50,367 bases of DNA from Ralstonia sp. SET104 (GTDB lineage: Bacteria > Pseudomonadota > Gammaproteobacteria > Burkholderiales > Burkholderiaceae). Location: contig NZ_BHVX01000023.1 in NCBI RefSeq assembly GCF_003851545.1, positions 1-50,367 on the forward strand, given 5' to 3'. The position numbers were made by a program, and so were the translations under genes. The notes beneath the pieces were generated by a model. It was not told the origin of the DNA, searched no databases, and was given only the letters and a program-made list of their open reading frames with translations. Of the stretch, positions 173-24,477 are shown piece by piece; position 1 is the first letter of the stretch; each line of letters starts with the position of its first letter.

Positions 173-868
173 ATGGATATCGAGGCATTGCGAAGCACCC
201 TGGAGCAAGCCAGCCTGGCATCGCTGGGCGTGGGCTTTCTGCTCGGGTTCGTGTTCACCTTCAACCCGGTGGCGCTGGCCGCGATCCCGGTGTCGCTGGC
301 CTACGTCACCAAAGCACGCGAAACGAAAACGGCGATCCGGTATGGCGCGATGTTCATCCTCGGGATGGTCCTCACGCAAACGCTGCTGGGACTGGCGGCG
401 GCCTTGGGTGGCCAAGGGGTGGAGCGGGTCATCGGACGTGAGTGGGGCGTCGTGCTGGGACCGGCGCTGATTCTGCTTGGACTCATATGGCCAGGATGGA
501 TCAGGCTGCCCTTGCCATCGCTTCCCGTTCGCGCCAAAAGAGTGGGTAGCGGTTGGGGCGCGTTCGCTCTCGGTGCCCCCTTTGCCGTGGCCGTCTGCCC
601 TGCGTGCACGCCGGCTATGGTGATCTTGCTCGGCATCGCCGCCGTGATCGGCTCCCCGTTGTTCGGCGCGACCCTGTTATTCGCGTTCGCTTTGGGCCGT
701 GCCGTGCCGATCATCGTCGGCGCGGTGGCCTTGGGACGGCTGGAGAGCCTCTCGATGCTGAAGCGTTACCAAAAAACCTTCGAGATTGCCGGCGCGGTCG
801 TGCTGATTCTTTCCGGCCTTTACATGTTGAATGCGTACTTCTTCATCATTCCGGAGCTCGCGGCCTGA
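173..868 (+). CDS. CcdA/DsbD-type membrane electron-transfer protein lacking one of the two redox cysteines
   Basis: This 231-residue protein has about six hydrophobic segments and the layout of the CcdA family, which carries electrons from cytoplasmic thioredoxin to periplasmic thiol proteins. Classical CcdA uses one cysteine in TM1 and one in TM4. Here the TM1 motif reads FNPVALAAIP (residues 30-39), so the usual cysteine is Val33, while the TM4 motif AVCPACTPAM keeps Cys142 and Cys145. It may therefore use the CxxC pair alone or move something other than two electrons; this is inference. The start at 173 has a GGAACAGG ribosome site. The cytochrome c gene follows after 32 bp, suggesting one transcript. 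MerT-like transport is an alternative role. Confidence 0.75.
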   Translation: MDIEALRSTLEQASLASLGVGFLLGFVFTFNPVALAAIPVSLAYVTKARETKTAIRYGAMFILGMVLTQTLLGLAAALGGQGVERVIGREWGVVLGPALILLGLIWPGWIRLPLPSLPVRAKRVGSGWGAFALGAPFAVAVCPACTPAMVILLGIAAVIGSPLFGATLLFAFALGRAVPIIVGAVALGRLESLSMLKRYQKTFEIAGAVVLILSGLYMLNAYFFIIPELAA

Positions 869-900: not shown

Positions 901-1575
901 ATGATTCGACGACTTGGCGTTCATGCGGTCGTGGCCGCTTTGGGCCCACTTGTGTTTAGTGTGCCGGCTCGTGCAGAGGGTGACCTCACACGTGGCGCAC
1001 AAGCCGCCCGTGCCTGCATGGCGTGCCATTCATTTGCACCGGGTCGGCACATGACAGGCCCGAGTTTGGCAGGCGTTTTGGGCCGCAAAGCAGGCACAGC
1101 CGACGGTTTCGTGCGCTACTCTGACACCCTCAAGCAATCAGGTCTGGTCTGGGACAAACGGAACCTCGATGCATGGCTCAAAAATCCGGCGGCCGTGGTG
1201 CCGGGTAACGCGATGACCTTTCCCGGTATTGCCGATGCACGTGCGCGAGCCGATCTGGTTGCTTACCTTGAAGCCGTTTCCACGGGTCGTGTGAAGGTGC
1301 CCGATAGTGGCCTGCCGAACTTGAAGGAGCTCGACGCGGCGTCGAGGGTCACCTCAATCCGTTACTGTAGCGACACCTATCGCCTGACCACCGCCGACCG
1401 GAAGACCCACGCCTTTTGGGAGTTCAACCTGCGATTCAAAACCGATGGCAGCGCTGCCGGCCCGGCTGCCGGTCAGCCTGTGCTGATCGGCGCAGGCATG
1501 CAAGGCGACCGTGCTGCCGTGGTGTTCGCACGCCCCGAGGAAATCTCGACCTTCATTCAGAGGCGGTGCCCATAA
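901..1575 (+). CDS. periplasmic c-type cytochrome with C-terminal extension
   Basis: The protein has 224 residues: a signal peptide (about 1-25, ending PARA), then a class I cytochrome c domain with heme motif CMACH (Cys39, Cys42, His43) and a likely axial Met105 in NAMTFPG. The first 120 residues match a typical cytochrome c552-like domain. The last 100 residues, with two cysteines, form an extension I do not recognise. ATG 901 is preceded by AGGAG. A much longer frame is open upstream, but it overlaps the CcdA-like gene and lacks a signal peptide, so 901 is preferred. CcdA proteins often serve cytochrome c maturation, so the pair makes functional sense. It converges with dsbD, 80 bp away. 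Confidence 0.85.
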   Translation: MIRRLGVHAVVAALGPLVFSVPARAEGDLTRGAQAARACMACHSFAPGRHMTGPSLAGVLGRKAGTADGFVRYSDTLKQSGLVWDKRNLDAWLKNPAAVVPGNAMTFPGIADARARADLVAYLEAVSTGRVKVPDSGLPNLKELDAASRVTSIRYCSDTYRLTTADRKTHAFWEFNLRFKTDGSAAGPAAGQPVLIGAGMQGDRAAVVFARPEEISTFIQRRCP

Positions 1576-1655: not shown

Positions 1656-3602
1656 TCAACTCTTCCCGTTGTGGTTCCACGCCCGCGAGAGGCTGTCGAG
1701 AAAAAGGCTTGCCGACTGAAAACCGATCACCCGCACCGAGCTCTCACGTCCGTCGGCACCAAACAAGATGATGCCGGGCGGCCCGAACAAGCCGAAGCGT
1801 TTGAGCAGGGTGCGGTCGTCGGCCGTATTGCCGGTCACGTCCGCCTGCAACAGCACAGCCCCCGCCAGCTGCGCCTGGACTCTTGGATCGCTAAAGGTCA
1901 GGCGTTCCATTTCCTTGCAACTGACGCACCAATCGGCATAGAAATCCAGTAGCACCGGCTCGCCGGCCGCGGCGGCCTGCACCAAGCGCGCATCGAGCTC
2001 GGTCACAGAACGGATGCGCTCGAAGTGCACCACCGCCGGGCCAGCAGTGGAGGCAGGTGCCACCTGGCCAGCACGCAGATGCGACAGCGGCTGGAGCAGG
2101 TCCCGTCCGCCAGACGCCAGCCCGACCAGCAGGATCGCCCCTGCCAGCGCGGCCACCACGCCCATGCCTTTCCCCAACCGGGCCAAGCTGCGAGGCTCGG
2201 GACCAAGCGAATCGAAGGCGCCCAGGAAGGCGGAGGCAATCAGCAGCAGCATGCCCCACGCCGTCATTGCTGCCCAGGGAGGCAATAGCGGACCGACAGC
2301 CCAGAGCGCCTCGCCCAGCAGCAAGAAGCCCAAGAAGCCCTTCGTCACCTTCAGCCAGTGTCCAGCGCGCGGCAGAAGATTGCCGGCGGCGACGCCGATC
2401 AGCACCAGCGGTGTCCCCACGCCGATCGCCATAGCGAATAGTGCAACGCTACCGCTGATGCCATCACCGGTTTGCATGAGATAGGCCAGCGTGCCCGACA
2501 GCGGCGCACGCACGCCGCGAACGACGACCAACGCTGAAATCACCCCCGATACTGCGGCAACAGCAATCTGGCCGCCCGACCGCTGGTTCGAGGACGCCGC
2601 CATTGGGGGCTGTCGCCCCAGCTCATAGAGTCCGAACATCGACAGCGCCAGGGCCACTGCCAGCGTGGCAAAAGCTCCCAGCGCCCACGACATCTGCGGC
2701 CCCGCCGAGAATCTCTCGCCGAAAAATCCTGCAGCCACGCCGACGCCGGCATAAGCCACCGTCATTCCAAGCACGTAGGCTAGCGAGACCAGCAAGGCGC
2801 GACCGCGCGTGACGTGCTCGCCGACGACGATTGACGACAGCATCGGCACCATCGCCAGCACGCTTGGCGTGAGCGTCAGCAGCAGGCCGAAGCTGAGGAA
2901 GACCGTGGCAATCTTCCCCAACTGGCGGCTGGCCAGCACACGGGCAATGCGGTCGCCGTCGTCATTCCTTGGCGCAGCTGATGGAACAGCAGGCTCAATT
3001 TGCCCCTCTCCCAAGCCGGGCAAAGTCGGCGCCGCCGGCGGCACGGGCGACGTCATTGGCGTGCTGCTCCGATGCCGATCGAATAGGCCACCGAGCAAGC
3101 CACCGCCGACCTTGTACACACTCTTCATCGGCGGGTAGCAGATTCCCTTGTCGGCACAGCCTTGTGATGTCACCGTCAGCGACCATTTGCCGTCGGCAGG
3201 CACGACCGCCACCGGCACGCGAATGGTGACGCCGCCATGATAGGTCTCCATCTGCTTGCCGAGCGCTTCGTCAAACTTGACCTGCCCCGGCGGAAACTCG
3301 GGGGCGCCGAGATTGACCTCAGCCGGTTGTGCGGTGAACGCGAATCGCTCACGGTAGAGGTGATAACCGTCGGCAATGTCGAAGTGCACCTCGATGGAGT
3401 GGTCTTCGAGTTGCCGCGCCACCAAACGGAAGGCCCGTTCCGGTGGCAGGAGATCTTGCTCGCCAGCAGCATGGGCAACCCCACCGGCGCCTGCGATGCA
3501 GAGCCATATAAAAGCAAGCAGCTGCAAAACGAGCTGTGCCGGGGCGAGGAGTCGTACTCGCCCGTCACCGCCAGTGCGCATGGCTGCCACGCTCCATCCC
3601 AT
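1656..3602 (-). CDS. dsbD: DsbD-like thiol:disulfide interchange protein without transmembrane cysteines
   Basis: The 648 residues contain all three DsbD modules. An N-terminal periplasmic domain keeps its cysteine pair (CADKGICYPP, Cys149/Cys155). An eight-helix membrane domain spans about residues 225-500. A C-terminal thioredoxin-like domain carries WCVSCKE (Cys559/Cys562). In E. coli DsbD the membrane domain relays electrons through a cysteine in TPCVLPM and another in SPCTTAPLSG. Here these read TPSVLAM (Ser247, codon at 2862-2864) and VRGVRAPLSG (Gly363, codon at 2514-2516), so both relay cysteines are absent. I checked both codons in the nucleotide sequence. The signal peptide ends near VAHA. 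Met8 (3581) is an alternative start. It is the last gene of the minus-strand copper set. Transport through the membrane must work differently or be lost. Confidence 0.88.
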   Translation of the reverse strand: MGWSVAAMRTGGDGRVRLLAPAQLVLQLLAFIWLCIAGAGGVAHAAGEQDLLPPERAFRLVARQLEDHSIEVHFDIADGYHLYRERFAFTAQPAEVNLGAPEFPPGQVKFDEALGKQMETYHGGVTIRVPVAVVPADGKWSLTVTSQGCADKGICYPPMKSVYKVGGGLLGGLFDRHRSSTPMTSPVPPAAPTLPGLGEGQIEPAVPSAAPRNDDGDRIARVLASRQLGKIATVFLSFGLLLTLTPSVLAMVPMLSSIVVGEHVTRGRALLVSLAYVLGMTVAYAGVGVAAGFFGERFSAGPQMSWALGAFATLAVALALSMFGLYELGRQPPMAASSNQRSGGQIAVAAVSGVISALVVVRGVRAPLSGTLAYLMQTGDGISGSVALFAMAIGVGTPLVLIGVAAGNLLPRAGHWLKVTKGFLGFLLLGEALWAVGPLLPPWAAMTAWGMLLLIASAFLGAFDSLGPEPRSLARLGKGMGVVAALAGAILLVGLASGGRDLLQPLSHLRAGQVAPASTAGPAVVHFERIRSVTELDARLVQAAAAGEPVLLDFYADWCVSCKEMERLTFSDPRVQAQLAGAVLLQADVTGNTADDRTLLKRFGLFGPPGIILFGADGRESSVRVIGFQSASLFLDSLSRAWNHNGKS

Positions 3603-3742: not shown

Positions 3743-4072
3743 TCATTCCGCCGCGCCACCCGACGCCCCAGGGGGAACGTGAAGATGCAAGAACTTCTCG
3801 ACGGGAACAACCGCCACGATCCCGGCGCCCGGCACCGTCGATTTTCCGACCGCAACGATCGCGTTGGTGATGGCCTCAACCTCGGCCTCGTCCGCGAAAA
3901 TTTCAACCTTGGTATGCACGGTGGTCAGGTCACTGGAAAAGAAATTCTTGTACTCGCCGTACCCCTTGACCCTGGTGATCGTCAGACCCGGGGCGTGAAC
4001 GGTCGCAAGCTTCCGTTCAAGCTGCTCCAGCAGTTCGGTGGGAACAATGGCAATCACCCATTTGGTGCTCAT
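3743..4072 (-). CDS. PII-like signalling protein
   Basis: The 109-residue protein has the size and beta-alpha-beta pattern of the PII superfamily: an opening strand WVIAIVPTELLEQLE, a region GYGEYKNFF where PII proteins carry the T-loop, and a second repeat rich in Val/Ile ending VPVEKFLHLH. It lacks the Tyr-uridylylation context of GlnB/GlnK. PII-like proteins beside RND or other metal transporters are known and are thought to sense ligands and control transport; that role is inferred here. ATG 4072 has an AGGAG site seven bases upstream. The frame continues upstream to 4360, but that part overlaps the Rieske gene. It sits between the Rieske and dsbD genes on the same strand. Confidence 0.72.
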   Translation of the reverse strand: MSTKWVIAIVPTELLEQLERKLATVHAPGLTITRVKGYGEYKNFFSSDLTTVHTKVEIFADEAEVEAITNAIVAVGKSTVPGAGIVAVVPVEKFLHLHVPPGASGGAAE

Positions 4073-4131: not shown

Positions 4132-4737
4132 TCATCTGGCTCCATAGCGATCCTCGCCAACTATCAAGCGGGCGTTGTCCAGGTACTGGTACGGAGGGAT
4201 CTCCAGGTTGAGCGGCGCAGGAACATTCCGGAACACACGTCCGGCCAGATCGAATTTGGAACCATGGCAAGGACAAAAGAAGCCACCGGGCCAACGATCG
4301 CCCAAATCCGGGGCGCCGACTTCCGGCCGATAGTTCGGTATGCAGCCAAGATGCGTACAAATGCCTACTGCCACAAAGTAGTCAGGCCGAAGGGAGCGGG
4401 TTGCGTTGCGTGCATAGGCCGGCTGTTGATCTTCTTTGGATTGCGGATCGCCCAACAGATTGTCGTGTGTGCCTAGACGATCCAGCATGTCGCGGGTACG
4501 GTGCAAGATCCAAACGGGCTTACCGCGCCAAGCGACGGTAACCAGAGCCCCGGGCTCAACGGCATCGAGGTTCACCTCGACGGGGGCTCCTCTCGATCTG
4601 GCGGCGCGGCTCGGCGCCATGCTCGCGACGAATGGCAGCATGGCGCCAGCGAGCCCCACACCACCCACGGTGCCGGTGGCCAGCAGAAGCAATCTGCGCC
4701 GGCGTGCGGTTCGGGAGTCTGCGCTTGGCTTGCTCAT
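4132..4737 (-). CDS. Rieske 2Fe-2S protein (PetA-like, stand-alone)
   Basis: The 201-residue protein has a basic N-terminus (ARRRRLLLLA), one hydrophobic helix (about residues 18-42) and a C-terminal Rieske fold. The two cluster motifs are CTHLGC and CPCHGSKFD, each giving one Cys and one His ligand plus the disulfide cysteine. This matches the iron-sulfur subunit of ubiquinol-cytochrome c reductase in layout and length. No cytochrome b or c1 gene is next to it, so it is either a spare subunit for a complex encoded elsewhere or part of a separate electron path with the cytochrome and DsbD proteins nearby. ATG 4737 has GGAG upstream. The longer open frame to 4947 overlaps the methyltransferase gene. 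Confidence 0.88.
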   Translation of the reverse strand: MSKPSADSRTARRRRLLLLATGTVGGVGLAGAMLPFVASMAPSRAARSRGAPVEVNLDAVEPGALVTVAWRGKPVWILHRTRDMLDRLGTHDNLLGDPQSKEDQQPAYARNATRSLRPDYFVAVGICTHLGCIPNYRPEVGAPDLGDRWPGGFFCPCHGSKFDLAGRVFRNVPAPLNLEIPPYQYLDNARLIVGEDRYGAR

Positions 4738-4795: not shown

Positions 4796-5455
4796 TCAGT
4801 CCACGAGTGTGCTGAACAATTGCTTCCATTGCCTGACGCCTGGCATGAACATGGGGACGTCTTTTCGATACGCCTCGTAGGCGGCCCCAAAACGGCTGAC
4901 CATGTCTTGTTCTTCCTTGCGCGCCAGCCTGTTATAGACAAACACAATGACTGGCAACAGCACCACGGTGATCAGCGTGGGCCAATGCACCACCTGCCCG
5001 AAGACAGCCAGCATGATGCCGAGGTACTGCGGATGACGGACGAATCCATAAGGTCCCTCCTGGGCGATGCGCCCGGCGCGGCTTGCCCGATAGACAGTGC
5101 TCCATCCCCAAATCAGCAGAATGAGGCCCGGGAGGATGAAGACGGTAGCTATCACCATCTCGACCATTGCGCCAGCCATGCCATAACCGAGCAGCGTAGC
5201 CCACAGATGCCCACTGTAGACAGTAAGCGGTATGTCGATTCCGAGGAAGCCCGTCAGGAGGTAGATCGTGAGGGGGAAGCCGTACATTTCCGCGTACAGC
5301 GCGATCACAAAGGCCTGAACGAGACCCGCCCCAGTCCATTCGCGCCAACCTTGCGGCGCCACGTACCGATACAAGATCCATGACACCACCCCAACCAAGA
5401 CCGCGACAAGGTTCCAATGGCCGTAGTGCGCACTAAAACTACTCATGATGTTCAT
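4796..5455 (-). CDS. isoprenylcysteine carboxyl methyltransferase-like membrane protein
   Basis: The 219 residues form five or so membrane segments followed by the ICMT/PEMT signature: GPYGFVRHPQYLG (about residue 140), then the RKEEQDMVSRFG and YEAYRKDVPMF motifs near the C-terminus. Members are SAM-dependent methyltransferases. Bacterial homologues in metal-resistance clusters are common, but their substrate is unknown, and no CaaX-type protein is evident here. ATG 5455 has GAGGAG just upstream, so it is favoured over the internal ATG at 5446. The gene lies 58 bp before the Rieske gene on the same strand. Confidence 0.82.
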   Translation of the reverse strand: MNIMSSFSAHYGHWNLVAVLVGVVSWILYRYVAPQGWREWTGAGLVQAFVIALYAEMYGFPLTIYLLTGFLGIDIPLTVYSGHLWATLLGYGMAGAMVEMVIATVFILPGLILLIWGWSTVYRASRAGRIAQEGPYGFVRHPQYLGIMLAVFGQVVHWPTLITVVLLPVIVFVYNRLARKEEQDMVSRFGAAYEAYRKDVPMFMPGVRQWKQLFSTLVD

Positions 5456-5614: not shown

Positions 5615-5860
5615 TCACTTTTCGATCCGAAATGGCTGCTTCTGCTCAGGCGTGTCCTCTCTCGTCGAACGCCGCTGATCGTCTTGACCTTGCATGCCTT
5701 TCATCATCAGCCACATCGATAGCGGGCAGACGAGGATCAGCAGGTAGGGACCAATGCCCAGCACGAAGGCACGAACTGACGGGAAAACGGCATAGGCGAG
5801 CGCCAAGATCGCCACCAGGGCAGCGCCCACGGCGGCCATGGTTCTCATATTGCATTTCAT
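5615..5860 (-). CDS. small DUF2933-type membrane protein
   Basis: The 81-residue protein has two hydrophobic segments (about 7-27 and 33-53) separated by a short PSVRAF turn, followed by MMKGMQGQ and a charged, soluble tail. This matches the DUF2933 family of short inner-membrane proteins often found in copper and silver resistance clusters. Their function is not known. ATG 5860 is preceded by AGGAG. About 160 bp without any clear gene separate it from the methyltransferase downstream. Confidence 0.72.
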   Translation of the reverse strand: MKCNMRTMAAVGAALVAILALAYAVFPSVRAFVLGIGPYLLILVCPLSMWLMMKGMQGQDDQRRSTREDTPEQKQPFRIEK

Positions 5861-5908
5861 AGCGGTACTCCTGTGGTGCTCGGTCGTTCGCGATACGGCC
5901 GACCACCG

Positions 5909-6214
5909 TCATTTCGATGAGGGCGTCTGGATCTTGTCCGCGTACTTGCGCAGGATTTCCCCCATCGCCTGCATCATCTCCCCATGCATCTGCATCGAGA
6001 GCTTCTCGTTGCCGGGCGGCAGTTGCCCCATCATCGGACAACCGCCCATCATTCCGTCGCCCATCATGTGATCCATCATCATGGAGTGCATGGGGTCTTG
6101 CGAACCCGGCTTGGTGCCGTCGGTGCCACGGCTGGGGCCGGCTGCCACGCTCCAGCCACCGGCCCCAAGCAGGGCAAGCGCAAGCGTTGCGGCCACGACT
6201 GATTGCGTCTTCAT
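5909..6214 (-). CDS. methionine-rich periplasmic protein, probably copper-binding
   Basis: The 101-residue protein has a signal peptide ending near VAAG and a mature part dominated by Met and His: HSMMMDHMMGDGMMGG, then CPMMGQ, MQMHGEMMQ. Such Met/His clusters bind Cu(I)/Ag(I) in known periplasmic proteins; binding here is inferred from composition. The downstream helix MGEILRKYADKI is conserved in related small proteins of copper islands. ATG 6214 is chosen because GGAG lies six bases upstream; ATG 6226 in the same frame is possible. It lies among the small-protein genes downstream of cueR-copA and may share their transcript. Confidence 0.75.
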   Translation of the reverse strand: MKTQSVVAATLALALLGAGGWSVAAGPSRGTDGTKPGSQDPMHSMMMDHMMGDGMMGGCPMMGQLPPGNEKLSMQMHGEMMQAMGEILRKYADKIQTPSSK

Positions 6215-6346
6215 GTCATTCTCCATATTCGATTGAGCTGGATCGCTCTCACCTGATTTCGTGTGTCATCGACCTGACGACTGGTCTCTCAGCATCCGCA
6301 TCGCACTGACGCGAGCACTTCGATCATCGGGCTGCGGCGCACACGC

Positions 6347-6589
6347 TCATTTCGCTTCGGAAGAACCCTTTGTGCTGCCGCCGTCTGCCGGGCGGGCATC
6401 CGTTGATTTCATCATTTCAGCGCACTGCTTCTGCATCGCCTCTTTGCTCGATGCAGTACCGGAAGCGGCGGCGGAATGCTTTGCAGCCGCGCGCGCACTG
6501 TTGATGGCGTCCCAGTTGGGACCCGCGAAGGCCGCGCCAGCGGCAACACCAAGCGAAACGAGAACGATGATTCTGAGAACAGAATGCAT
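6347..6589 (-). CDS. small exported protein with GPNWDAINSAR motif
   Basis: The 80-residue protein has a signal peptide (about 1-21, ending AFA) followed at once by GPNWDAINSARAAAK, then an Ala/Ser-rich stretch, a KQCAEMMKS segment with one Cys and two Met, and a low-complexity C-terminus. The same GPNWDAINSAR block begins the mature part of the protein at 17914-18420. I know no function for it. ATG 6589 is preceded by GGGGAAG; an in-frame GTG at 6604 is less likely. Confidence 0.65.
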   Translation of the reverse strand: MHSVLRIIVLVSLGVAAGAAFAGPNWDAINSARAAAKHSAAASGTASSKEAMQKQCAEMMKSTDARPADGGSTKGSSEAK

Positions 6590-6710
6590 GATGGTCTTCC
6601 CCACATAAGGTTTCTTCCCGGCTCATTCCAGGCAGAGTCAGCAGACATCCTGCCGGGGGAGCGATTGAAATCAGAGCTTGCGGCGACGGATTGCCGCGTA
6701 TGGGGGGGGA

Positions 6711-7097
6711 TCAGATTCGCAAGCGCGCTGTTGCGAGATAGATGGGCCCAGGCACTGCAGCGGGCCGAGAGGCCAACGGGTAAGCCGGTCCGGCGTAAGG
6801 CGTCGGAGGAAGAACGTGCACGAGCCCGATTGCGGCAGGCAGCATGCCAAGATCAAGAGCATGGCCGTTGGCATCCGCCAGGTGGCGGCCATCGTGCCGA
6901 TGGTCCGCGCAGAGCGCAGGCTGCGCATCGTCCATGTCCTGGCAGTTCACGACGGAAACAGCCATCGCCGAGGAGTCCATCATGGCCCCCGACTCGGGCG
7001 GGCAAACGTATCCCGCGATCGCCACGCGCGTGAACAACACCGTCGCGAGCAACGCGAGCACAAGCAACCGAGCGAGGGGGTGATGGTGATGCTTCAT
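6711..7097 (-). CDS. small exported Cys/His/Met protein, paralogue of 17415-17795
   Basis: The 128-residue protein has a His-rich start (MKHHHH), a hydrophobic signal or anchor (about 8-28), then GYVCPPESG, CQDMDDAQPALCADH and a C-terminal YLATARLRI. The protein at 17415-17795 shares GYVCP-ES, LCAD and YLQTARLRL, and the product of 10278-10715 has a looser C-DMAD-LC-HC pattern. Three cysteines with nearby His, Met and Asp suggest metal handling, but no function is established. ATG 7097 has an AGGG site; an upstream TTG at 7109 is less likely. It is probably transcribed from the cueR promoter through copA (gap 113 bp). Confidence 0.65.
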   Translation of the reverse strand: MKHHHHPLARLLVLALLATVLFTRVAIAGYVCPPESGAMMDSSAMAVSVVNCQDMDDAQPALCADHRHDGRHLADANGHALDLGMLPAAIGLVHVLPPTPYAGPAYPLASRPAAVPGPIYLATARLRI

Positions 7098-7210: not shown

Positions 7211-9619
7211 TTAAGGCACCTGCGTTCTCAACCGCAGCGCATTGGAAATCACCGACACCGAACTCAGGCTCATGGCAAGTGCCGCAATCATCGGTGACAG
7301 CAGCCACCCCGTGAACGGATACAGCAGCCCAGCGGCCAGCGGGATTCCCAGCGCGTTGTAGACGAACGCAAATCCGAGGTTCTGTTTCATATTGGCAATG
7401 GTGGCTTGCGACAGTTCCCGCGCACGCGCTAACCCGCGCAGGTCGCCCTTGACCAGCGTGACCTGGGCGCTATGCATCGCCACATCGGTTCCAGTCCCCA
7501 TGGCGATGCCGACGTCGGCTTTGGCTAGGGCCGGCGCATCGTTGATGCCGTCGCCAGCCATGGCCACCACGTGGCCTTCGCCTTGAAGTTTTGCGACCAG
7601 CGCTAGCTTGCCGGCCGGTTTGACTTCACCGTGAAACTCGCTAATACCAAGGGGGCCGGCCACGGCTCGCGCTGTCGCGATGCTGTCGCCGCTGGCCATC
7701 ACCACGCGAATCCCGGCTGCTTTGAGCGCCGCAAGCGCTTCGGGAGTGCTGGCCTTGATCGGGTCCGAGACCGTCAGCAGCCCCGCCAATTTCCGGTCAA
7801 CGGCCAGGTACATGACACTGGCGCCGTACTGCCCCAGCACATTTGCCCGCAACGCTTGTGATTCAATGACGACTTGCTCCCGACGCATCAGGGCGGCATT
7901 GCCGAGTATCAGTTGGTGACCGTCAACCCGGCCCCGCACGCCCATACCCGCGTCCGATGCGAAATGTTCGACCTTCCCTAACGTCAGGCCCCGCTCACGC
8001 GCCGCCGCAACGATGGTGGCCGCCAGCGGGTGCTCGCTACCCTGATCGAGACTCGCCGCCAGGCGTAGCACCGTGGTCTCATCGAGCGAATCGACGGCCA
8101 ATGCCCGCTCGAAGACCGGACGGCCCTCGGTCAGCGTGCCGGTTTTGTCGACGATCAGGGTGTCGACCTTGCGGAAATGCTCGATGGCGGCCGCATCCCG
8201 GAACAGAATGCCCTGGGTTGCCGCCTTGCCGCTGGCCACCATGATCGACATCGGCGTAGCGAGCCCCAGCGCGCATGGACAGGCGATGATCAACACGGCC
8301 ACGGCATTGACCAGCCCAAAGACCCAGCTCGGCTCGGGACCGAACAATCCCCAGCCGAAGAAAGCAAGCACGGCAATGGCTACCACCACCAGCACGAACA
8401 CGCCGGCAACCTGGTCCGCCATGCGCTGCATGGGCGCCTTGGAGCGCTGGGCCTGGGCCACCATCTGGACGATCTGCGACAGCACCGTCTGGGCGCCGAC
8501 CTTTTCCGAGCGCATCACCAGGCTGCCCGACGTATTGAGGGTGGCGCCGATCACGTGGTCGCCAGCGTGCTTGGAAACGGGCAACGGCTCGCCGGTGATC
8601 ATCGATTCGTTGATGGCGCTTGCTCCTTCGGTCACGATGCCATCGGTTGGCACCTTCTCGCCCGGCCGAATCCGAAGCAAGTCGCCGACATGCACGTGCG
8701 TGAGCGGAACGTCCTCCTCGCTGCCGTCAGGCTTGATGCGGCGTGCCGTCTTGGGTGCCAGGCCGAGTAGCGACTTAATGGCAGCCGAAGTCTGCGAACG
8801 CGCCCGCAGTTCAAAAATCTGGCCGAGCAGCGTGAGCGAAATGATGACGGCCGCAGCTTCGAAGTAGACCGGGATGCGGCCGTGCATGGCAAAGCTGGAG
8901 GGAAACAGCCCGGGCGCAACGGTGGCTGCAACGCTGTAGACGAAGGCCGCGCCAGTGCCCAGACCGATCAGGGTCCACATGTTCGGGCTGCGGCTGCGCA
9001 ACGACTGCAGGCATCGGGCATAGATGGGGAAGCCGGCCCACAAGACCACGGGCGCGGACAAGGCAAACTCCACCCAGCCTTGCGCCGCCGGGGCCACGCC
9101 AGCGACATGGCCCCCCAGCATCACCAGCGCTACGACAGCGATCGTCAGCGGCAAGGTCCACCAGAAGCGTCGGCGGAACGCCGCGAGTTCGGGATGCTCA
9201 TCCGCGTCAAGACTCGGCATCGCCGGCTCAAGCGCCATACCGCACTTCGGGCAACTCCCGGGATGGTCCTGGCGGATCTCGGGGTGCATGGGGCAGGTGT
9301 AGACGGTGTCCTGCGCTGCATTGGCGTCGTCTACAGCGGAGGTGACATGTGGATGCGTGTACCGCGTGGGGTCCGCATCGAACTTCCGCTGGCATGCTGC
9401 GCCACAGAAGCTGTATCGGGTTCCCGCGTAGCTTGACTGATACGGCGTATTGGGCTTGACCGTCATCCCGCACACCGGGTCCCGTTCCTCAGTGGCGGTC
9501 ACGAGCGTCAGTCGCGTCGCCGTGGCATGCGGGTGACCCCCAGCTTGGGCTCGCTCCGGCTCGCCGTCGTGCCCGGGCGCGGCGGATGACATATGCGGAT
9601 GCGGTTGTTGGTCGCGCAT
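7211..9619 (-). CDS. copA: copper-translocating P1B-type ATPase
   Basis: The 802-residue protein exports Cu(I) across the inner membrane at the cost of ATP. The N-terminus lacks the usual ferredoxin-like metal domain. It carries instead a YHS-like segment (DPVCGM, about 47-52, with FCGAAC) and a heavy-metal-binding segment (YTCPMHPEI to CPKCGM, about 107-128). The catalytic parts are all present: TGEPLP (342), the metal-site CPC (447-449), phosphorylation motif DKTGT (491-495), SEHP (528) and [10 protein letters not shown]. Eight membrane helices are apparent. ATG 9619 lies 12 bp after the cueR stop, so the two form an operon under the promoter at 10157-10187. The N-terminus (HPHM, GGHPHA) is His-rich. 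Confidence 0.95.
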
Positions 9620-9631
9620 TTTCGCGGTGCC

Positions 9632-10060
9632 TCAATGCCTTGTGGCCTGCGGTGCGGGCAATTGCCGTGGGGCTGCGCTGCTGATGGCCTCCAGGATCGG
9701 ACAAGCGGGTCGATCGTCGCCATCACAATGCTGCGCCAGATACAGCAGGGTGTCCCGCATGCCGCTGAGCGCGGCAATCCGAGCGTCCAGTTCCTGAATG
9801 CGCTGCAACGCGATGGCCTTCACCGCCACGCTCGCGCGCCGCTTGTTTTGCCACAGCCCGAGCAGCTCCCGAATCTGCGCCGTGGAGAAACCCAATGCCC
9901 GCGCACGCCCAATGAAGCGCAGGGTGTGGATGTCGTTTTCACGATACATCCGGTAGTTTCCCTCGCTCCGGGTAGCCGAAGCGACCAGGCCAATACTTTC
10001 GTAGTAGCGGATCATTTTGGCCGAGACGCCGGAGACACTCGCGGCTTGTCCGATATTCAT
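9632..10060 (-). CDS. cueR: CueR-type MerR-family copper regulator
   Basis: The 142-residue protein begins with the MerR winged-helix domain (NIGQAASVSGVSAKMIRYYE), continues with the dimerisation helix, and ends with the Cu(I)-binding loop HCDGDDRPACPI. The two cysteines fall at 112 and 120, the same spacing and numbering as in E. coli CueR, which indicates a monovalent ion (Cu or Ag) and not mercury or zinc. ATG 10060 is the standard family start; the frame is open for another 38 codons upstream across its own promoter. It is the first gene of the cueR-copA operon and probably controls that promoter and the one at 17221-17251. Confidence 0.95.
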   Translation of the reverse strand: MNIGQAASVSGVSAKMIRYYESIGLVASATRSEGNYRMYRENDIHTLRFIGRARALGFSTAQIRELLGLWQNKRRASVAVKAIALQRIQELDARIAALSGMRDTLLYLAQHCDGDDRPACPILEAISSAAPRQLPAPQATRH

Positions 10061-10156
10061 GGCGTGCTCCTCGCTCCTGCGCGCATGGCAGCTTCGGTAT
10101 CCTGTGTTCGCGACATCTTTCACGGAACCGACGCGTGCCCAAATCTTCACGATTTC

Positions 10157-10187
10157 ACGGTACACCCTTCCCAAGTGGGAAGGTCAA
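10157..10187 (-). promoter_or_regulatory. CueR-type promoter/operator of cueR-copA
   Basis: Read on the minus strand, -35 TTGACC (10187-10182) and -10 TACCGT (10162-10157) are separated by 19 bp. The spacer region contains an inverted repeat, CCTTCCCA and TGGGAAGG, at 10166-10183. A 19-bp spacer holding a dyad is the hallmark of MerR-family promoters, which the regulator activates by untwisting. The mirrored hexamers on the plus strand are poor, so this site does not obviously drive the plus-strand gene at 10278. Confidence 0.85.
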
Positions 10188-10277
10188 GGATGTCGCAATC
10201 GTGCTTTTGCCCGATGCCCATGCGGGCGCCTGATCCTGTTTTCCGCGCAGTTGCATTGCGAGCAAAAACCGGTATCC

Positions 10278-10715
10278 TTGCGAAAATTCTGCCGCTGCAA
10301 AAAACCCTTGCGTCACACGCCACGCCGGCATCCTTTCTTCGCTGGCATCCTCCTGCTGGTTTTCCTGACTGTTCAACTGGCAGCGGCGGCGTACGCCTGT
10401 GCCGGCAGTCAGTACCGGATGGACGGCGGCGACGCAAAAGCAGCCCTGACCGAATCGTGCACTGACATGGCCGATCATCACGGCAGCAGCGTGGACAAGG
10501 ACAACGGCGCCCTTTGCCTGGCCCATTGTCAGGCCGACTCAAAGAGCGCCGACCATGTCGCACCGCAACTGCCGGTTTTCTTGCCGGTGCTGACGGGCGT
10601 CATCGAGCCGACACGCGTCGTTCTAGCCGATGTTCGCGCCGCGCTGCGCACCGAGGTGACAGCGCGCGCTCCCCCGCCACCCCTGGCCATCCTTTACTGC
10701 AGTTTCCAAACGTAG
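10278..10715 (+). CDS. small exported Cys/His protein upstream of cusC
   Basis: The coding signal is clear from about RHPFFAGILLLVF onward: a signal or anchor helix ending AAAAYA, then C-AGSQ, CTDMADHHG, GALCLAHCQAD, and a C-terminus PPPLAILYC. About 145 residues result if the TTG at 10278 is used. No ATG exists in frame after the cueR promoter, so the start is uncertain; TTG 10308 is another candidate. The position directly before cusCBA matches that of cusD in the Cupriavidus cusDCBAF operon, but I cannot confirm homology. The Cys/His/Asp pattern relates it to the products of 6711-7097 and 17415-17795. The cusC start follows after 70 bp. Confidence 0.6.
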   Translation: MRKFCRCKKPLRHTPRRHPFFAGILLLVFLTVQLAAAAYACAGSQYRMDGGDAKAALTESCTDMADHHGSSVDKDNGALCLAHCQADSKSADHVAPQLPVFLPVLTGVIEPTRVVLADVRAALRTEVTARAPPPPLAILYCSFQT

Positions 10716-10785: not shown

Positions 10786-12087
10786 ATGCTTTTTCCTCGT
10801 CGCCTGACGCTGGCGCTGCTCTGCGCGCCTGCCTTCGGCATCGCGATGTCGCATGCCGCGACCTCGCAATCCGTTCCCCCGCTTTCCGTTGAGGAAACCG
10901 TCGCGCTCGCCACCGCGCATGCCAGCGACGCCGAATCCTCGCGCGGCACCATCGAAGCCGCAACCCAAATGGCGGTCGCCGCCGGCCAGTTGCCGGACCC
11001 CGTACTCAAGCTCGGACTCGACAACGTGCCGGTCAACGGCCCCGACCAGTTTTCGCTCAGCCGGGATTTCATGACCCAGCGCTCCATCAGCGTGATGCAG
11101 GAATTCACGCGCGCGGACAAGCGCCGCGCCAAAGCGGCACGTTTCGAGGCGGAAGCCGACGCCGCCGAAGCGCAGCGCGCGGTCGGCCTCGCCAACGTGC
11201 AGCGCAACGCCGTCGGTGCGTGGCTGGACCGCTGGTATGCCGAACAGACCGGCACGTTGCTGGGCCACCATGGCCACCCGCTGGAACTCGCATTGCAGGC
11301 GGCAACTGCCGCGTATCGCAGCGGACGGGGCACACGCGCCGACGTGCTGGCGATGGAACTGGAAATCCAGAAGCTGCAGGACCGCCTGGACGAAAACCGC
11401 GCTGCCGTGGCGACCAGCACCGTCGCTCTAGAGCGCTGGGTTGGCCCGGCTGCGAGCCGCCCGATGTCCGAGCGCCCGCGCCTCGATGTTCCCCCGCCGG
11501 TCGAACAACTGGCGCGCGGTGAGTTGGACGCGGTACCCGAGATCACCGCCGCGCAGCGCGAAGTGGGTCTGGCGGAGAGCGAGATCCGGGCCGCCGCCGA
11601 AACAAAGAAGCCGGATGTCACGGTCGAGCTGATGTACAGCCAGCGTGGCTCCGCGTTCTCGAACATGGGTTCCGTGAACATCAGCTTTCCGCTGCCTTGG
11701 GACCAGGGCAACCGGCAGGACCGCGAAGTCGCGGCCAGGCTGGCACAAGCCCAGGCGGCGCGTGCCAAGTCCGAAATCCTCCGGCGCGATACCCAGGCCA
11801 TGGTCGGCGCCAAGCTGGCCGAGCTGCAGCGCAATCTCGAGCGGCTCAAGCGCTACGACGAGAAGACCCTGCCGCTCGCCAGCACGCAGGCGGAGGCGGC
11901 CCTGACCGCCTACCGGTCCAATACCGGATCGCTGGTGGCCGTGGCTGAAGCCAATCATCGCGCCATCGATACGGAATTGGAGCGACTGGCGCTGGAAGCC
12001 AAGACGGCCAAGCTGTGGGCGGACCTGACCTTCCTGGTTCCGCTGCCCACCGCGCAGACCGAGTCCGCCATCAAGGAACGCAAATGA
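10786..12087 (+). CDS. cusC: outer-membrane efflux protein (TolC/CusC family)
   Basis: The 433-residue protein is the outer-membrane channel of a tripartite RND system. It has a signal peptide (about 1-25, ending SHA) and the two long alternating helix-strand repeats of the family, for example QLPDPVLKLGLDNVP (first strand region) and SVNISFPLPWDQGNR (second). It is somewhat shorter than E. coli CusC and lacks an obvious lipobox. ATG 10786 follows a strong GGAGG. It overlaps the next gene by ATGA at 12084-12087, showing translational coupling with cusB. Confidence 0.9.
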   Translation: MLFPRRLTLALLCAPAFGIAMSHAATSQSVPPLSVEETVALATAHASDAESSRGTIEAATQMAVAAGQLPDPVLKLGLDNVPVNGPDQFSLSRDFMTQRSISVMQEFTRADKRRAKAARFEAEADAAEAQRAVGLANVQRNAVGAWLDRWYAEQTGTLLGHHGHPLELALQAATAAYRSGRGTRADVLAMELEIQKLQDRLDENRAAVATSTVALERWVGPAASRPMSERPRLDVPPPVEQLARGELDAVPEITAAQREVGLAESEIRAAAETKKPDVTVELMYSQRGSAFSNMGSVNISFPLPWDQGNRQDREVAARLAQAQAARAKSEILRRDTQAMVGAKLAELQRNLERLKRYDEKTLPLASTQAEAALTAYRSNTGSLVAVAEANHRAIDTELERLALEAKTAKLWADLTFLVPLPTAQTESAIKERK

Positions 12088-13616
12088 AAAAACAGGTCAT
12101 TGCAACGGCTGTGGGGCTCGTTCTTGCCGGGGCCGCCATCTATGGCGCCTACCGGGTCGGCGTCACGCAGGGTGCCCGGTCGGCATCATCGTCGATGCCG
12201 GCCAGCCCGGCATCTGGTCTCGCGGCCGGCGACGTCGATCCCAAGACCGGCAAAAAGGTGCTGTACTGGCACGATCCCATGGTGCCCGGGCAGCGCTTCG
12301 ACAAGCCGGGCAAATCTCCCTTCATGGACATGCAGTTGGTGCCTGTCTACGCGGAGGGGGACAGCGGTGCCAGCGGCATCACGGTTGATAGCCGTGTCGC
12401 GCAAAACCTCGGCATCCGCACGGCCGAGGTCAAGGCCGGCCGGTTGAGCGCGGTGCTGGAAGCGCCCGGCAATATCGCCATCGACGAGCGCAGCGTGCAA
12501 GTGATCCAGGCGCGCACGAACGCCTTTGTCCAGCACGTCGCAGTCAGGGCGACCCTCGACCCCGTGCGGCGGGGGCAAGCGCTGGTAACGCTGTATTCGC
12601 CAGACTGGGTGGCGGCCCAGGAAGAGTATCTGGCTGTGTTGCGTCAGCCGGCACACGGTCAAGCCGATCTCGCCGGTGCGGCCAAGGCGCGCATGCTGCA
12701 GGCCGGCATGACGCCGGGTCAGGTCAGCGCGGTTGAGGCCTCCGGCCGGCTGCAGCCCAGCGTAGGCATTGCGAGCCCCATCGATGGCATCGTGACCGAG
12801 GTCGCAGTGCGCGATGGGATGACAGTCTCCCCCGGCATGACGCTGTTCCGCCTGGCCGACTTGAGCCAGGTCTGGGTGGTTGCCGAGGTGCCCGAGGGCC
12901 AGGCCCGCACCATCTCGCCCGGCCTGGCGGTCAAGGTGCTGCCGACTGGGGCTGCCGAGCCGCTGGTCGGCAAGGTCGACACCGTGTTGCCCGACGTCAA
13001 CCCGGCGACACGGACCATCAAGGTGCGCATCGTCCTGCCCAACAAGGGCCGGCACCTATTGCCGGGCATGTTTGCCACGGTCCGCTTCGACAGCGGCGAG
13101 CAGCAGGACGTGCTGACCATCCCGTTGGAGGCCGTCATCCGTACCGGTCAGCGCAGCATTGTCATGGTCGATGGTGGCCAGGCGGGCTTTGTGGCCACCG
13201 AGATCAAGACCGGGCGCGAGGCCGAGGGTATGGTCGAAGTCCTGGCGGGTCTCAAGGCTGGCCAGAAGGTGGTCACCTCCGGCCAGTTCCTGATCGATTC
13301 GGAAGCCAGCCTGCGCGGCACCACCGAGCGCATGGCTGCCCCGGCTGCGGCCTCCGCACCCGCAGCGGCCACCACCGAACACGAAGGCGTCGGCCGGATC
13401 GAGGCCGTCACCGGTGAAGGCCTGACGATCTCACACAGTCCGATTCCGTCGATCCAGTGGGGTGCCATGACGATGGACTTCGGGGCGCCGCCAACAGGTC
13501 TGCCAAAAGGCCTGAAGCCGGGCGACCGGGTGCGTTTCCGCTTCCATCTGAACGCCGATGGCATGGCAGTTCTGTCTTCGGTCGAGCCAGCCACTGGCGC
13601 AGGGGACAAGCCATGA
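12084..13616 (+). CDS. cusB: periplasmic adaptor CusB with fused CusF-like domain
   Basis: The 510-residue membrane-fusion protein links the CusA pump to the CusC channel. In order: an N-terminal anchor helix (8-25); a heavy-metal-binding segment ([10 protein letters not shown] ending MDMQLVPVY, about 61-89); the adaptor core with lipoyl and beta-barrel parts (about 100-410); an Ala-rich linker (about 415-430); and a C-terminal CusF-like domain (about 434-508). The last domain keeps the His, Trp and two Met of the CusF copper site ([16 protein letters not shown]), unlike the two free-standing CusF proteins nearby. The start overlaps the cusC stop and its stop overlaps the cusA start. Confidence 0.92.
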
Positions 13617-16600
13617 TCGCCCGGCTGATTCTGGCGTCCATCCGCAACCGCTTCCTGATTCTGCTGGCGACGCTGATGCTGACCGCCTGGGGCCTGTGGG
13701 CCGTGCGCAGCACGCCGCTCGATGCCTTGCCCGACCTGTCGGACGTGCAGGTCATCATCCGCACGCCGTTCCCCGGCCAGGCACCGCAGATCGTGGAGAA
13801 CCAGGTCACTTATCCGCTGACCACCACCATGCTGTCGGTGCCCGGTGCCAAGACGGTGCGCGGCTACTCGTTCTTTGGAGACTCCTTCGTTTATGTGCTG
13901 TTCGAGGATGGCACCGACCTGTATTGGGCCCGCTCGCGCGTGCTGGAGTACCTGAACCAGGTGCAATCCCGCCTGCCGGCCGCCGCCAAGCCCGCGCTGG
14001 GCCCGGACGCGACCGGCGTGGGCTGGATCTACGAGTACGCATTGGTGGACAAGACCGGCCAGCACGACCTCAGCCAACTGCGTGCGCTGCAGGACTGGTT
14101 CCTGCGCTTCGAGCTCAAATCGCTACCCAACGTCGCCGAGGTGGCGTCGCTTGGTGGGATGGTCAAGCAGTTCCAGGTCGTCCTGATGCCGGATCGGTTA
14201 CGCGCGTACAACCTGTCCCAGGCTAAGGTGCTGGCGGCACTGAAGGCGGCGAACCAGGAGACCGGCGGTTCGGTGCTCGAACTGGGCGAGGCAGAGTACA
14301 TGGTCCGTGCCAGTGGCTACCTTAAGACGCTCGACGACTTTCGGCATATTCCGCTGATGACGAACGACGCGGGCATTGCTGTTCGCCTGGGCGACGTCGC
14401 CTCCCTCCAGCTTGGGCCCGAGATGCGGCGCGGCATTGCCGATCTCGACGGCCAGGGTGAGGTCGCTGGCGGTGTCATCGTGATGCGCTCCGGCAAGAAC
14501 GCACTGGAAACCATCGAAGCGGTCAAGGCCAAGCTCGCCACTCTGCAGAAGAGCCTGCCGGCCGGCGTCGAGATCGTGCCAACCTACGACCGTTCCGCGC
14601 TGATCAATCGAGCGGTGGAGAACCTGACGCACAAGCTGATCGAAGAGTTCATCGTCGTCGCGCTGGTGTGCCTGGTGTTCCTGTTCCACCTGCGTTCCGC
14701 ACTAGTGGCCATCGTGTCGCTGCCGTTGGGCGTGCTCGCCGCCTTCCTGGTGATGCGCTATCAGGGCGTCAATGCCAACATCATGTCGCTAGGCGGCATC
14801 GCCATCGCCGTCGGCGCGATGGTCGATGCGGCCGTGGTCATGATCGAGAACGCGCACAAGCACCTGGAACACTGGCATGCAGACAATCCCGGCCGTGACC
14901 TGGCCGGGCATGAGCGCTGGAGCGTGATCGGGGAGTCGGCGGCGGAAGTGGGTCCGGCGCTGTTCTTCTCGCTGCTGATCATCACGCTGTCGTTCATTCC
15001 GGTGTTCACGCTGGAGGCACAGGAAGGCCGGCTGTTCTCGCCGCTGGCCTTTACCAAGACCTATTCGATGGCGGCGGCGGCCGGGCTGTCCGTGACGCTG
15101 GTGCCGGTGCTGATGGGTTACCTGATCCGCGGGCGCATCCCCACCGAGCAATCGAATCCGCTCAGCCGCTGGCTGATCCGGCTTTATCAACCGGTGTTGG
15201 CCAGGGTGCTGGCGTATCCCAAGACGACGGTTGTCATCGCCGCCGTGCTGCTTGCAGCCACGGCTTGGCCGATCATGCGCACGGGCGGTGAATTCATGCC
15301 GCCGCTGGACGAGGGCGACCTGTTGTACATGCCGTCGGCGCTGCCGGGGTTGTCAGCGGGCAAGGCCGCCCAGCTCCTGCAGCAGACCGATCGCCTGATC
15401 AAGACCGTGCCGGAGGTCGCCAGCGTGTTCGGCAAGGCGGGCCGCGCCGACACCGCCACCGATCCGGCCCCCATCGAGATGTTCGAGACCACCATCCAGT
15501 TCAAGCCGCACGACCAGTGGCGGCCGGGCATGACGACCGACAAGTTGGTCGAGGAGCTGGACCGCGTGGTCAAGGTACCAGGCCTGTCCAACATCTGGGT
15601 ACCGCCGATCCGCAACCGGATCGACATGCTCGCCACCGGCATCAAGAGCCCGGTCGGCATCAAGGTGGCGGGCACGGACTTGAAGGAGATCGACCGCCTG
15701 ACCACGCGGATCGAGGAGGCGGTCAAGACTGTACCCGGGGTTACCTCGGCGCTGGCCGAACGCCTGTCCGGCGGGCGCTACGCCGACGTCGATATCGACC
15801 GGATGGCTGCGGGACGGTATGGCCTCAATATCGAAGACGTGCAGAGCATCGTGTCGTCAGCCGTGGGTGGAGACAACGTGGGGGAAGTGGTCGATGGCTT
15901 GGCCCGGTTCCCGATCAACGTCCGCTACCCACGTGACTACCGCGACTCGGTCGAGCAACTGCGCAGCTTGCCGATCGTCACCGACCGCGGCCAGCAGATC
16001 ACGCTGTCTGACGTCGCTCGTATCCAGGTGGTGCAAGGGCCACCGATGCTGCGCAGCGAGAACGCGCGCCTCTCCGGCTGGGTGTATGTGGACATCCGGG
16101 GGCGCGACTTGCGCTCGGCGGTGCAGGACATGCAGGCGGCAGTGACCAAGGCGGTGCCGATGCCGGCAGGCTACGCGTTGAGTTGGTCGGGCCAGTTCGA
16201 GTACCTGGAGCGTGCCAGCGCCAAGCTGAAGGTGGTGGTGCCGTTCACCTTGCTGATCATCTTCGTGCTGCTGTACCTTGTGTTCGGCGGCATCGACGAG
16301 GCGCTGCTCATCATGGGCACGCTGCCGCTGGCGCTGATCGGCGGCTTCTGGCTGCTCTATCTGCTGGGATACAACCTGTCGGTGGCCGGGATCGTCGGCT
16401 TCATCGCGCTCGCCGGGGTGGCGGCCGAGTTCGGTGTGATCATGTTGCTCTATCTCAAACAGGCATGGTCGGAGCGGCAGGAGGCCGGCCAGAACACGAC
16501 AACGGCGCTGCTGGAAGCCATTCAGGAAGGCGCGGTCCTGCGCGTGCGCCCAAAGGCCATGACGGTCGCCGTCATCCTGGCCGGCCTGATCCCGATCATG

Positions 16601-16783
16601 TGGGCGCACGGCACCGGTTCCGAGATCATGCAGCGCATTGCCGCCCCGATGGTTGGTGGCATGGTCACCGCGCCCTTGCTATCCCTGTTCGTCGTCCCGG
16701 CCGTGTATCTACTGATCCGCCGACGGCAGACGAACTCATCATCGCTTTCCACCCACCCCTCACATCAAGAGGAATCGACATGA
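13613..16783 (+). CDS. cusA: heavy-metal RND efflux pump CusA
   Basis: The 1056-residue inner-membrane pump exports Cu(I)/Ag(I) using proton flux. The TM4 signature [20 protein letters not shown] is the form found in monovalent-metal pumps and differs from the CzcA-type signature. Family landmarks include [16 protein letters not shown] near the N-terminus, the pore-domain motif [11 protein letters not shown], and the C-terminal membrane block beginning [10 protein letters not shown]. The ATG at 13613 overlaps the cusB stop (ATGA). The stop at 16781-16783 overlaps the cusF ATG, so cusCBAF is a fully overlapping operon with coupled translation. Confidence 0.95.
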
Positions 16784-19465: not shown

Positions 19466-19548
19466 GCGTCACAGAGCAGCCCAGCATGCGATAGAGTCAT
19501 AAGGGGCAACAATGGAACACGCCCTTCATGACCAGCACGATAAGAAGC

Positions 19549-19576
19549 TGTCGCGCCCTACAATCGGGGCGCGACA
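19549..19576. other. putative core recombination site of the tyrosine recombinase
   Basis: TGTCGCGCCC (19549-19558) and GGGCGCGACA (19567-19576) are perfect 10-bp inverted repeats around an 8-bp spacer (tacaatcg). Two inverted arms with a 6-8 bp centre is the form of a tyrosine-recombinase core site, such as the resolution sites of Tn4430 and Tn4651-type transposons. It lies 18 bp before the recombinase start codon, so binding could also repress that gene. Confidence 0.6.
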
Positions 19577-19593
19577 ATCTCGAAATCGTATCC

Positions 19594-20916: not shown

Positions 20917-20928
20917 CCGGACCGGTTC

Positions 20929-24221: not shown

Positions 24222-24477
24222 GTTGTGAACATCGACTGTGCGGTCCGGAACGCCATTCGAGTGGTTCGTGAACCTCAAGCGGCGGGTCCGGAACCGCGCC
24301 TGCGGCGTTCCGGACTTCAATCATGGCGTTCGCAACGCCACACCATGGGGTTCAGAACCTCAACGGCGGTGTTCAGAACCGCATGCATGGCGTTTTGAAC
24401 CCGGCTCCCTGGTGTTCCGAACCTCAAGTGTGGGGTTCAGAACGCCAAGGCAGGCGTTCCAGACGCCAGCGGCTGGT
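24222..24477. repeat. phased array of about 12 degenerate 21-22-bp palindromic units
   Basis: Units with a core close to GTTC-N-GAAC start at 24222, 24243, 24264, 24286, 24307, 24328, 24350, 24371, 24392, 24414, 24435 and 24456. The intervals are 21, 21, 22 repeated, so three units take 64 bp and the mean is 21.3 bp. Examples of the core are GTTCAGAAC (24350, 24371, 24435), GTTCCGAAC (24414) and GTCCGGAAC (24243, 24286). The cores are usually followed by C-N-CA and preceded by GG-G. The array begins about 120 bp upstream of the interrupted permease and ends at the rhodanese stop codon. Weak reading frames cross it but show only the repeat, so I treat it as noncoding. Confidence 0.85.

Follow-up and report, generated by a model that had tools for sequence, protein, structure and literature searches.

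DsbD is the textbook transmembrane thiol relay, and the dsbD gene of Ralstonia sp. SET104 raises the question of what such a protein might do once the cysteines that carry electrons through the membrane have gone. The gene lies on contig NZ_BHVX01000023.1 in a stretch of 50,367 nucleotides (positions 1 to 50,367), the whole of which is referred to here as the window. In canonical DsbD, electrons pass from thioredoxin to the membrane domain, then to gamma, then to alpha, and from there to partner proteins, as laid out in the available portion of PMC7347389. In the window protein the middle cysteine pair of this chain is gone, and the canonical chain is therefore cut.

Domain architecture and cysteine content of the window protein

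The gene (Table 1) encodes a protein whose Pfam matches follow the DsbD domain order, with DsbD_N at residues 48-164, DsbD_TM at 231-439 and a thioredoxin-like domain at 535-614, and which scored 462 bits against the NCBIfam DsbD model (NF001419; cut-off 330). Examination of the codons confirmed all six cysteine sites given in the initial annotation of this DNA, with Cys149, Cys155, Cys559 and Cys562 present and the two membrane relay cysteines replaced by Ser247 and Gly363. The sole further cysteine, Cys35, is found near the N-terminus, and the membrane domain has none. The initial annotation had also described the second relay motif as SPCTT changed to VRGVR; the latter sequence is right, but the ancestral motif is better given as GPCVT, the form present in the nearest intact relatives.

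Table 1. Positions of the relay-less dsbD gene, its domains and key codons, and neighbouring genes in the 50,367-nucleotide window
Feature	Position	Strand	Basis or remark
CcdA-like membrane protein, not a conserved partner	173..868	+	DsbD_TM profile match
c-type cytochrome adjoining dsbD	901..1575	+	
Relay-less DsbD, 648 aa: alpha, beta (membrane) and gamma domains	1656..3602	-	Intact frame
Gamma (thioredoxin-like) domain, residues 526-640, under strong purifying selection	1683..2027	-	
Cys562, codon TGC, gamma pair, retained	1917..1919	-	Codon check
Cys559, codon TGC, gamma pair, retained	1926..1928	-	Codon check
Beta (transmembrane) domain, residues 229-505, under relaxed selection	2088..2918	-	
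Arg362-Gly363, replacing Pro-Cys of the second relay motif	2514..2519	-	Gly363 codon GGC at 2514-2516
Ser247, codon AGC, replacing the first relay cysteine	2862..2864	-	Codon check
Alpha (periplasmic N-terminal) domain, residues 46-165	3108..3467	-	Pfam DsbD_N; aligns with solved E. coli and Neisseria DsbD alpha
Cys155, codon TGC, alpha pair, retained	3138..3140	-	Codon check
Cys149, codon TGT, alpha pair, retained	3156..3158	-	Codon check
Ala113 codon	3264..3266	-	Aligns with E. coli cap-loop residue Phe70
His81 codon CAC	3360..3362	-	Aligns with E. coli alpha residue 40 (Tyr)
P-II-like protein, conserved island neighbour	3743..4072	-	Pfam P-II, synteny
Rieske iron-sulfur protein, conserved island neighbour	4132..4737	-	Pfam, synteny
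ICMT-family methyltransferase-like membrane protein	4796..5455	-	
DUF2933 protein and three small island proteins without a Pfam match (5909-6214, 6347-6592, 6711-7097)	5615..7097	-	
Copper-type P-type ATPase, CopA-like	7211..9619	-	L043 relative annotated heavy metal P-type ATPase
MerR-family (CueR-like) regulator	9632..10060	-	L043 relative annotated cueR
CusCBA-like efflux genes: TolC-type, adaptor from 12084, RND pump from about 13613	10786..16783	+	

Distribution and phylogeny of the relay-less DsbDs

When 5.8 billion proteins were searched with the window protein, 2220 matches were retrieved, the best 120 of which were used; repeating this with the L054 DsbD as query retrieved 4211, the best 120 of which contributed 19 new identifiers. 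These matches, together with DsbD frames from fetched loci, gave an alignment of 250 rows once seven identical frames, P0002 (which duplicates the window protein in shorter form) and loci that were split or fetched twice had been removed. All six cysteines were present in 231 rows, termed canonical here; the other 19 comprised 16 proteins plus L006, L014 and L054, each of which is a locus copy of a clade member. Fifteen proteins (P0001, P0003-P0007, P0009-P0012 and P0122-P0126) were missing both membrane cysteines, and P0008 was missing the second only, the first being retained. The four soluble cysteines of the alpha and gamma pairs were retained in 16/16 proteins and in all 19 rows, in agreement with the earlier statement that the loss was selective for the relay module. 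The count of at least 16 relay-less proteins is drawn from the matches listed, and the clade may well have more members.

The residues occupying the relay sites varied across these proteins, with S, G, P or C at position 247 and G, S, I, F, R or H at position 363, and position 362 was Arg in 11 of the 16 and Pro in the other five. Among the matches listed, carriers belonged to Ralstonia or Cupriavidus in every record giving a name, and the clusters P0003 and P0005 represent 86 and 228 contigs, respectively. Frame L007 was identical to a record of R. pickettii SSH4, and L016 to one of Cupriavidus sp. IDO, the former being the basis for placing G000 in Ralstonia and the latter for taking Cupriavidus as the other genus. 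Identity between the window protein and the listed intact Cupriavidus DsbDs was 60-67%. When read as DNA, L006 (genome G012), L014 (genome G225) and L054 were each missing both relay cysteines, with codons partly different from those of the window; shared in this manner across the clade, the loss is real, and with all six cysteines present in 231 of 250 rows it is not a matter of chance.

Phylogenies were inferred from 55 rows, in which L054 stands for P0122. With the alpha and gamma columns only, the 16 relay-less rows fell on one side of a single branch (SH-aLRT 90), and the same 16 rows were separated by one branch (support 96/86) when all domains, minus the motif columns, were used. The relay-less DsbDs thus form the conserved clade that the initial annotation had envisaged. 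That annotation had looked to clade members with both membrane cysteines as counter-evidence; none of the 16 has the two electron-carrying cysteines together, and the sister of the clade, P0022 from Cupriavidus metallidurans, has all six cysteines along with Tyr81 and Thr113. An independent loss in L054 was also considered and rejected, the trees placing L054 in the same clade once P0123-P0126 had been added.

Loss of the second membrane cysteine required one change on the tree. For the first, the minimum was two changes: P0008 is a clade member that still has it, and a grouping of the other 15 proteins to the exclusion of P0008 was rejected (p-AU 0.00027). Loss of both cysteines in one event at a single node is rejected with it. 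Most simply, the second relay cysteine would have been lost before the first, which would then have been lost several times, or once with one return.

Genomic context of the relay-less dsbD genes

In the window, the MerR regulator, CopA-like ATPase, small proteins, DUF2933 protein, ICMT-like protein, Rieske protein and P-II-like protein are encoded in that order on the same strand, followed by dsbD, and the CusCBA-like genes run opposite to dsbD. A relative of the cytochrome gene also adjoins dsbD in G012, and adjoins the P-II gene in a C. oxalaticus plasmid. No thioredoxin-like neighbour was detected among the island genes that were annotated or scanned.

When 396 genomes were searched with the Rieske protein, ten others were found to harbour the island, as were three plasmid records. 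The place of dsbD was visible in 12 island copies including that of the window, comprising four with an intact relay-less gene, six with a split gene, one with a truncated gene and one in which the gene was absent. All four intact relay-less genes that were read as DNA lie in the copper island, these being from the window, G012, G225 and G017, the gene of the last being identical to that of L054 (Cupriavidus sp. 2SB). A single split allele accounts for all six split copies, four from Cupriavidus genomes and two from plasmids, with 0 differences across 2039 bases; dsbD was reduced to about 58 residues in one further Cupriavidus genome, and a third plasmid carried the island without dsbD; the contigs of G153 and G040 stop inside the Rieske gene. 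Given these split, truncated and absent copies, the gene is dispensable in those Cupriavidus islands. All four genomes in which the island gene is intact also encode a DsbD with all relay and soluble cysteine motifs (G012, G017, G225 and the window genome, G000, which has two copies).

The open-access literature was searched for DsbDs without relay cysteines and nothing was found, which is weak evidence as most subscription papers fall outside that scope. Judged from the sequences compared here, a DsbD without membrane relay cysteines is a variant not found in the open-access literature, and one that forms a conserved clade tied to a copper island.

Several other features of these islands were observed. 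In the Cupriavidus gilardii plasmid NZ_CP098737.1 (L043, 15325-20603), the island with the split dsbD is situated near the mcr-5 colistin-resistance gene and a Tn3-family transposase, and in the window a phage-type integrase and a Tn3-family transposase (19528-23862) lie past the copper efflux genes, consistent with the edge of a mobile island. The ICMT-like gene has shrunk to an 85-residue frame in several Cupriavidus islands (L126, L165-L168), and the P-II gene accompanying the split dsbD allele is also spread across two frames; judging by this damage, the distal genes seem to be decaying together in these Cupriavidus islands. The plasmid of Cupriavidus sp. EM10 (NZ_CP076061.1; L044, 7515-9771) encodes a more distant DsbD relative (47%) whose match extends over three frames, and none of the other island genes were found beside it. 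Elsewhere in the window, a 550-residue protein with four rhodanese-domain stretches is encoded at 24477-26129, and two small, secreted-looking island proteins with several cysteines (6711-7097 and 10017-10715), one of them weakly DUF2946-like at a score below cut-off, are possible substrates of the alpha domain.

Selection acting on the individual domains

Rates of nonsynonymous and synonymous substitution were estimated for each domain by the Nei-Gojobori method. Across the three relay-less pairs formed by the window, G012 and G225, dN/dS was 0.39-0.49 for beta, 0.16-0.26 for alpha and 0.10-0.14 for gamma, and the comparison of the window with L054 gave 0.36, 0.14 and 0.09, respectively. For the window and G012, a pair that shares the loss, bootstrapping gave 0.49 (0.32-0.73) for beta, an interval that excludes 1, 0.26 (0.12-0.52) for alpha and 0.11 (0.05-0.20) for gamma. 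Canonical beta domains gave 0.02-0.11 in 28 Ralstonia pairs, and in Cupriavidus a median of 0.12 (344 pairs passing the dS filter) with a 97.5th percentile of 0.20 (127 pairs with dS > 0.6). Between the window and G012, dS itself differed between domains (beta 0.22, gamma 0.43; 1683-2918), and recombination may therefore have touched gamma.

Over the whole gene, dN/dS between the window and G012 was 0.38 for dsbD, the highest among the larger genes measured; CueR, CusB (in part), Rieske, CopA, TolC, cytochrome and ICMT ranged from 0.06 to 0.18. One small gene gave 0.42 and the P-II gene 0.33. Nonsense codons were absent from residues 46-640 of the window and G012 genes, against 11.4 expected under neutrality.

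Conservation of the protein sequences was also unequal between domains. Sites at least 97% invariant in the 231 canonical rows were retained in all 15 relay-less proteins at 15/19 positions in alpha, 34/41 in gamma and 30/76 in beta. The ratio of protein change in beta to that in alpha plus gamma was 1.99 in 15 Ralstonia relay-less pairs and 1.52 in 24 between-group pairs, compared with 0.85 in canonical pairs (n=5886). Within the four Cupriavidus relay-less proteins (6 pairs) the ratio was 0.67, so that beta was not faster there, which speaks against a uniform picture. In some clade members the membrane domain also carries in-frame deletions.

By these measures, evolution of the membrane domain is shown to be relaxed yet not free, with gamma strongly constrained, and the Ralstonia relay-less protein, as judged from codon change, is under selection after the loss.

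Altered residues in the alpha domain

Two alpha residues set the clade apart. His81 and Ala113 are the only residues within 46-640 that are identical in 16/16 clade proteins and unlike both the canonical majority and the sister protein P0022. Position 81 is Tyr in 231/231 canonical rows; Ala is found at position 113 in 0/231, where Thr (176), Asn (26), Phe (23), Leu (3) and Ile (3) occur instead. Alignment with the solved domain, counted by hand, places positions 81 and 113 at Tyr40 and Phe70 of E. coli alpha. We take the Tyr40 position to lie beside the cysteines, in which case His81 would be near them. The residue following Ala113 in the cap loop, 114, is changed from Phe to Leu in six Ralstonia-type proteins. 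In E. coli DsbD, Phe70 of the cap loop shields the alpha disulfide, as stated in the available portion of PMC7347389. The alignment shows Tyr81 to His and Thr113 to Ala as fixed changes in what is predicted to be the alpha active-site region, the weight given to these two sites having been assigned after the fact.

Proposed function and alternative explanations

We favour, at a probability of roughly 0.5, the reading that the protein is an accessory DsbD of a mobile copper island which has abandoned the relay, kept its dithiol domains and changed alpha, and which would act as an anchored alpha/gamma module, served in trans, with copper handling its likely task. The membrane domain would now mainly anchor alpha and gamma in the periplasm, so that the scaffold put forward in the initial annotation stands in part: the relaxed membrane domain may act as an anchor, although the fit is only partial. 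As the relay-less membrane domain cannot itself bring electrons, we propose that gamma and alpha would be reduced in trans by the canonical chromosomal DsbD, and that the alpha/gamma module may then handle disulfides or Cu(I) of the periplasmic copper proteins of the island. According to Katzen and Beckwith, DsbD domains can reportedly work as separate polypeptides. That dithiols can serve as Cu(I) ligands has a precedent in Salmonella, whose ScsB and ScsC have subpicomolar affinity for Cu(I), as described in the part of PMC8900818 that was available. A soluble-domain function has probably been maintained in Ralstonia. Were that so, reduction in trans would be possible at somewhat less than even chances, and direct binding of Cu(I) rather unlikely.

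The chief rival is slow decay, under which an accessory dsbD that had been copied into a copper island became redundant with the chromosomal dsbD, lost its relay, has no function of its own and is in the course of disappearing. We regard this as a tentative but serious alternative. What has become of the Cupriavidus copies fits it well, the gene being split, truncated or absent in 8/12 visible island copies (although six of these eight are one identical allele), and it is consistent with the raised dN/dS and in-frame deletions of the membrane domain and with the variable residues at both relay sites. It sits less easily with a gamma dN/dS of 0.11 (upper bound 0.20) after the loss, with zero nonsense codons where 11.4 were expected in the window and G012 pair, or with four soluble cysteines invariant in 16/16 proteins alongside two fixed alpha changes. 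The original view that the loss did not reflect decay is upheld for Ralstonia, where the protein is under selection post-loss, but not for some Cupriavidus lineages, with their split, truncated and absent alleles.

A more specific reading is that DsbD has been turned into a membrane-tethered Cu(I) dithiol module, in which a putative Cys-Cys-His alpha site would bind Cu(I) and hand it on, or would reduce the island's copper proteins; the reductant would come in trans from the chromosomal DsbD. The His at the Tyr40 place and the smaller cap-loop residue at the Phe70 place would then have been gained on the branch losing the second relay cysteine. In this full form we hold the copper module to be unlikely.

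Electrons might instead cross the membrane by way of a partner, with the CcdA-like protein doing the relay for the window DsbD, as the initial annotation had suggested. Its gene and dsbD are separated by about 790 bases that include the cytochrome gene, and the protein combines a membrane CPAC motif with its DsbD_TM match; its first motif, FNPV, is without cysteine, and its best NCBIfam model, ArsG, reached 58.8 bits, far under the cut-off of 200. Elsewhere in the window genome, a homologue (52%) is encoded at L163, where Pfam, run on five frames, identified a thioredoxin/glutaredoxin-like frame and a MerR-family regulator along with the DsbD_TM protein itself; this setting might hint at a redox function. 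Both a redox and a metal role are possible for this CcdA-like family. No separate CcdA-like counterpart was detected at an E value of 1e-5 in G012 or G225 (2/2 other genomes searched), where matches fell only inside DsbD genes. The CcdA-like protein is hence not supported as a general electron partner, and such a role in the window genome is improbable. A mer-like operon setting for L163 was considered separately and set aside, there being no Pfam match in the frames taken for MerT and MerP.

A new, non-cysteine relay at the replaced sites, such as a metal site in the membrane, is very improbable. Retention of Arg362 in 11/16 proteins might be cited in its favour, but position 362 is Pro in the other five, sites 247 and 363 are variable, and the membrane domain is relaxed; the metal relay of the initial annotation is unsupported because the replacing residues are not conserved, and a selected new ligand site would look otherwise. 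A sequencing or assembly error at the two relay codons has next to no likelihood, for the loss is also present in other genomes, where the substitutions differ in part, and nothing was found in favour of an error.

Relationship to known systems and implications

The relay-less protein shares with DsbD the three-domain order, the alpha cysteine pair in the motif QGCADKGxCYPP and the gamma motif WCVSCK, and differs from it in the lost membrane cysteines, the relaxed membrane domain, the alpha His and Ala, and the location in a copper island. The suppressor of copper sensitivity ScsB is a DsbD-like protein with the same alpha, beta and gamma domains and is tied to copper tolerance, and the Salmonella protein binds Cu(I) and keeps ScsC reduced, going by the available text of PMC8900818. 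The relay-less DsbD differs in having no relay cysteines, and no ScsC-like gene was noticed beside it. With CcdA it has in common the membrane domain family (DsbD_TM) of its beta domain; CcdA is in effect the beta domain alone with its two membrane cysteines, as described in the accessible part of PMC4491210, whereas the relay-less DsbD lost them in that very module.

The pattern suggests that the outer parts of the relay-less DsbD have been turned to another job. A clade in which the relay has been discarded and the outer dithiol domains remain under selection would show that these domains are useful apart from their own relay, and offers nature's own test of whether another protein can serve alpha and gamma in trans, or whether the two bind copper. 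It also advises caution before any protein that scores as DsbD is taken to be a disulfide reductase, the name that several members of the clade bear in public records. The relay-less observation is more general than the single window sequence could reveal.
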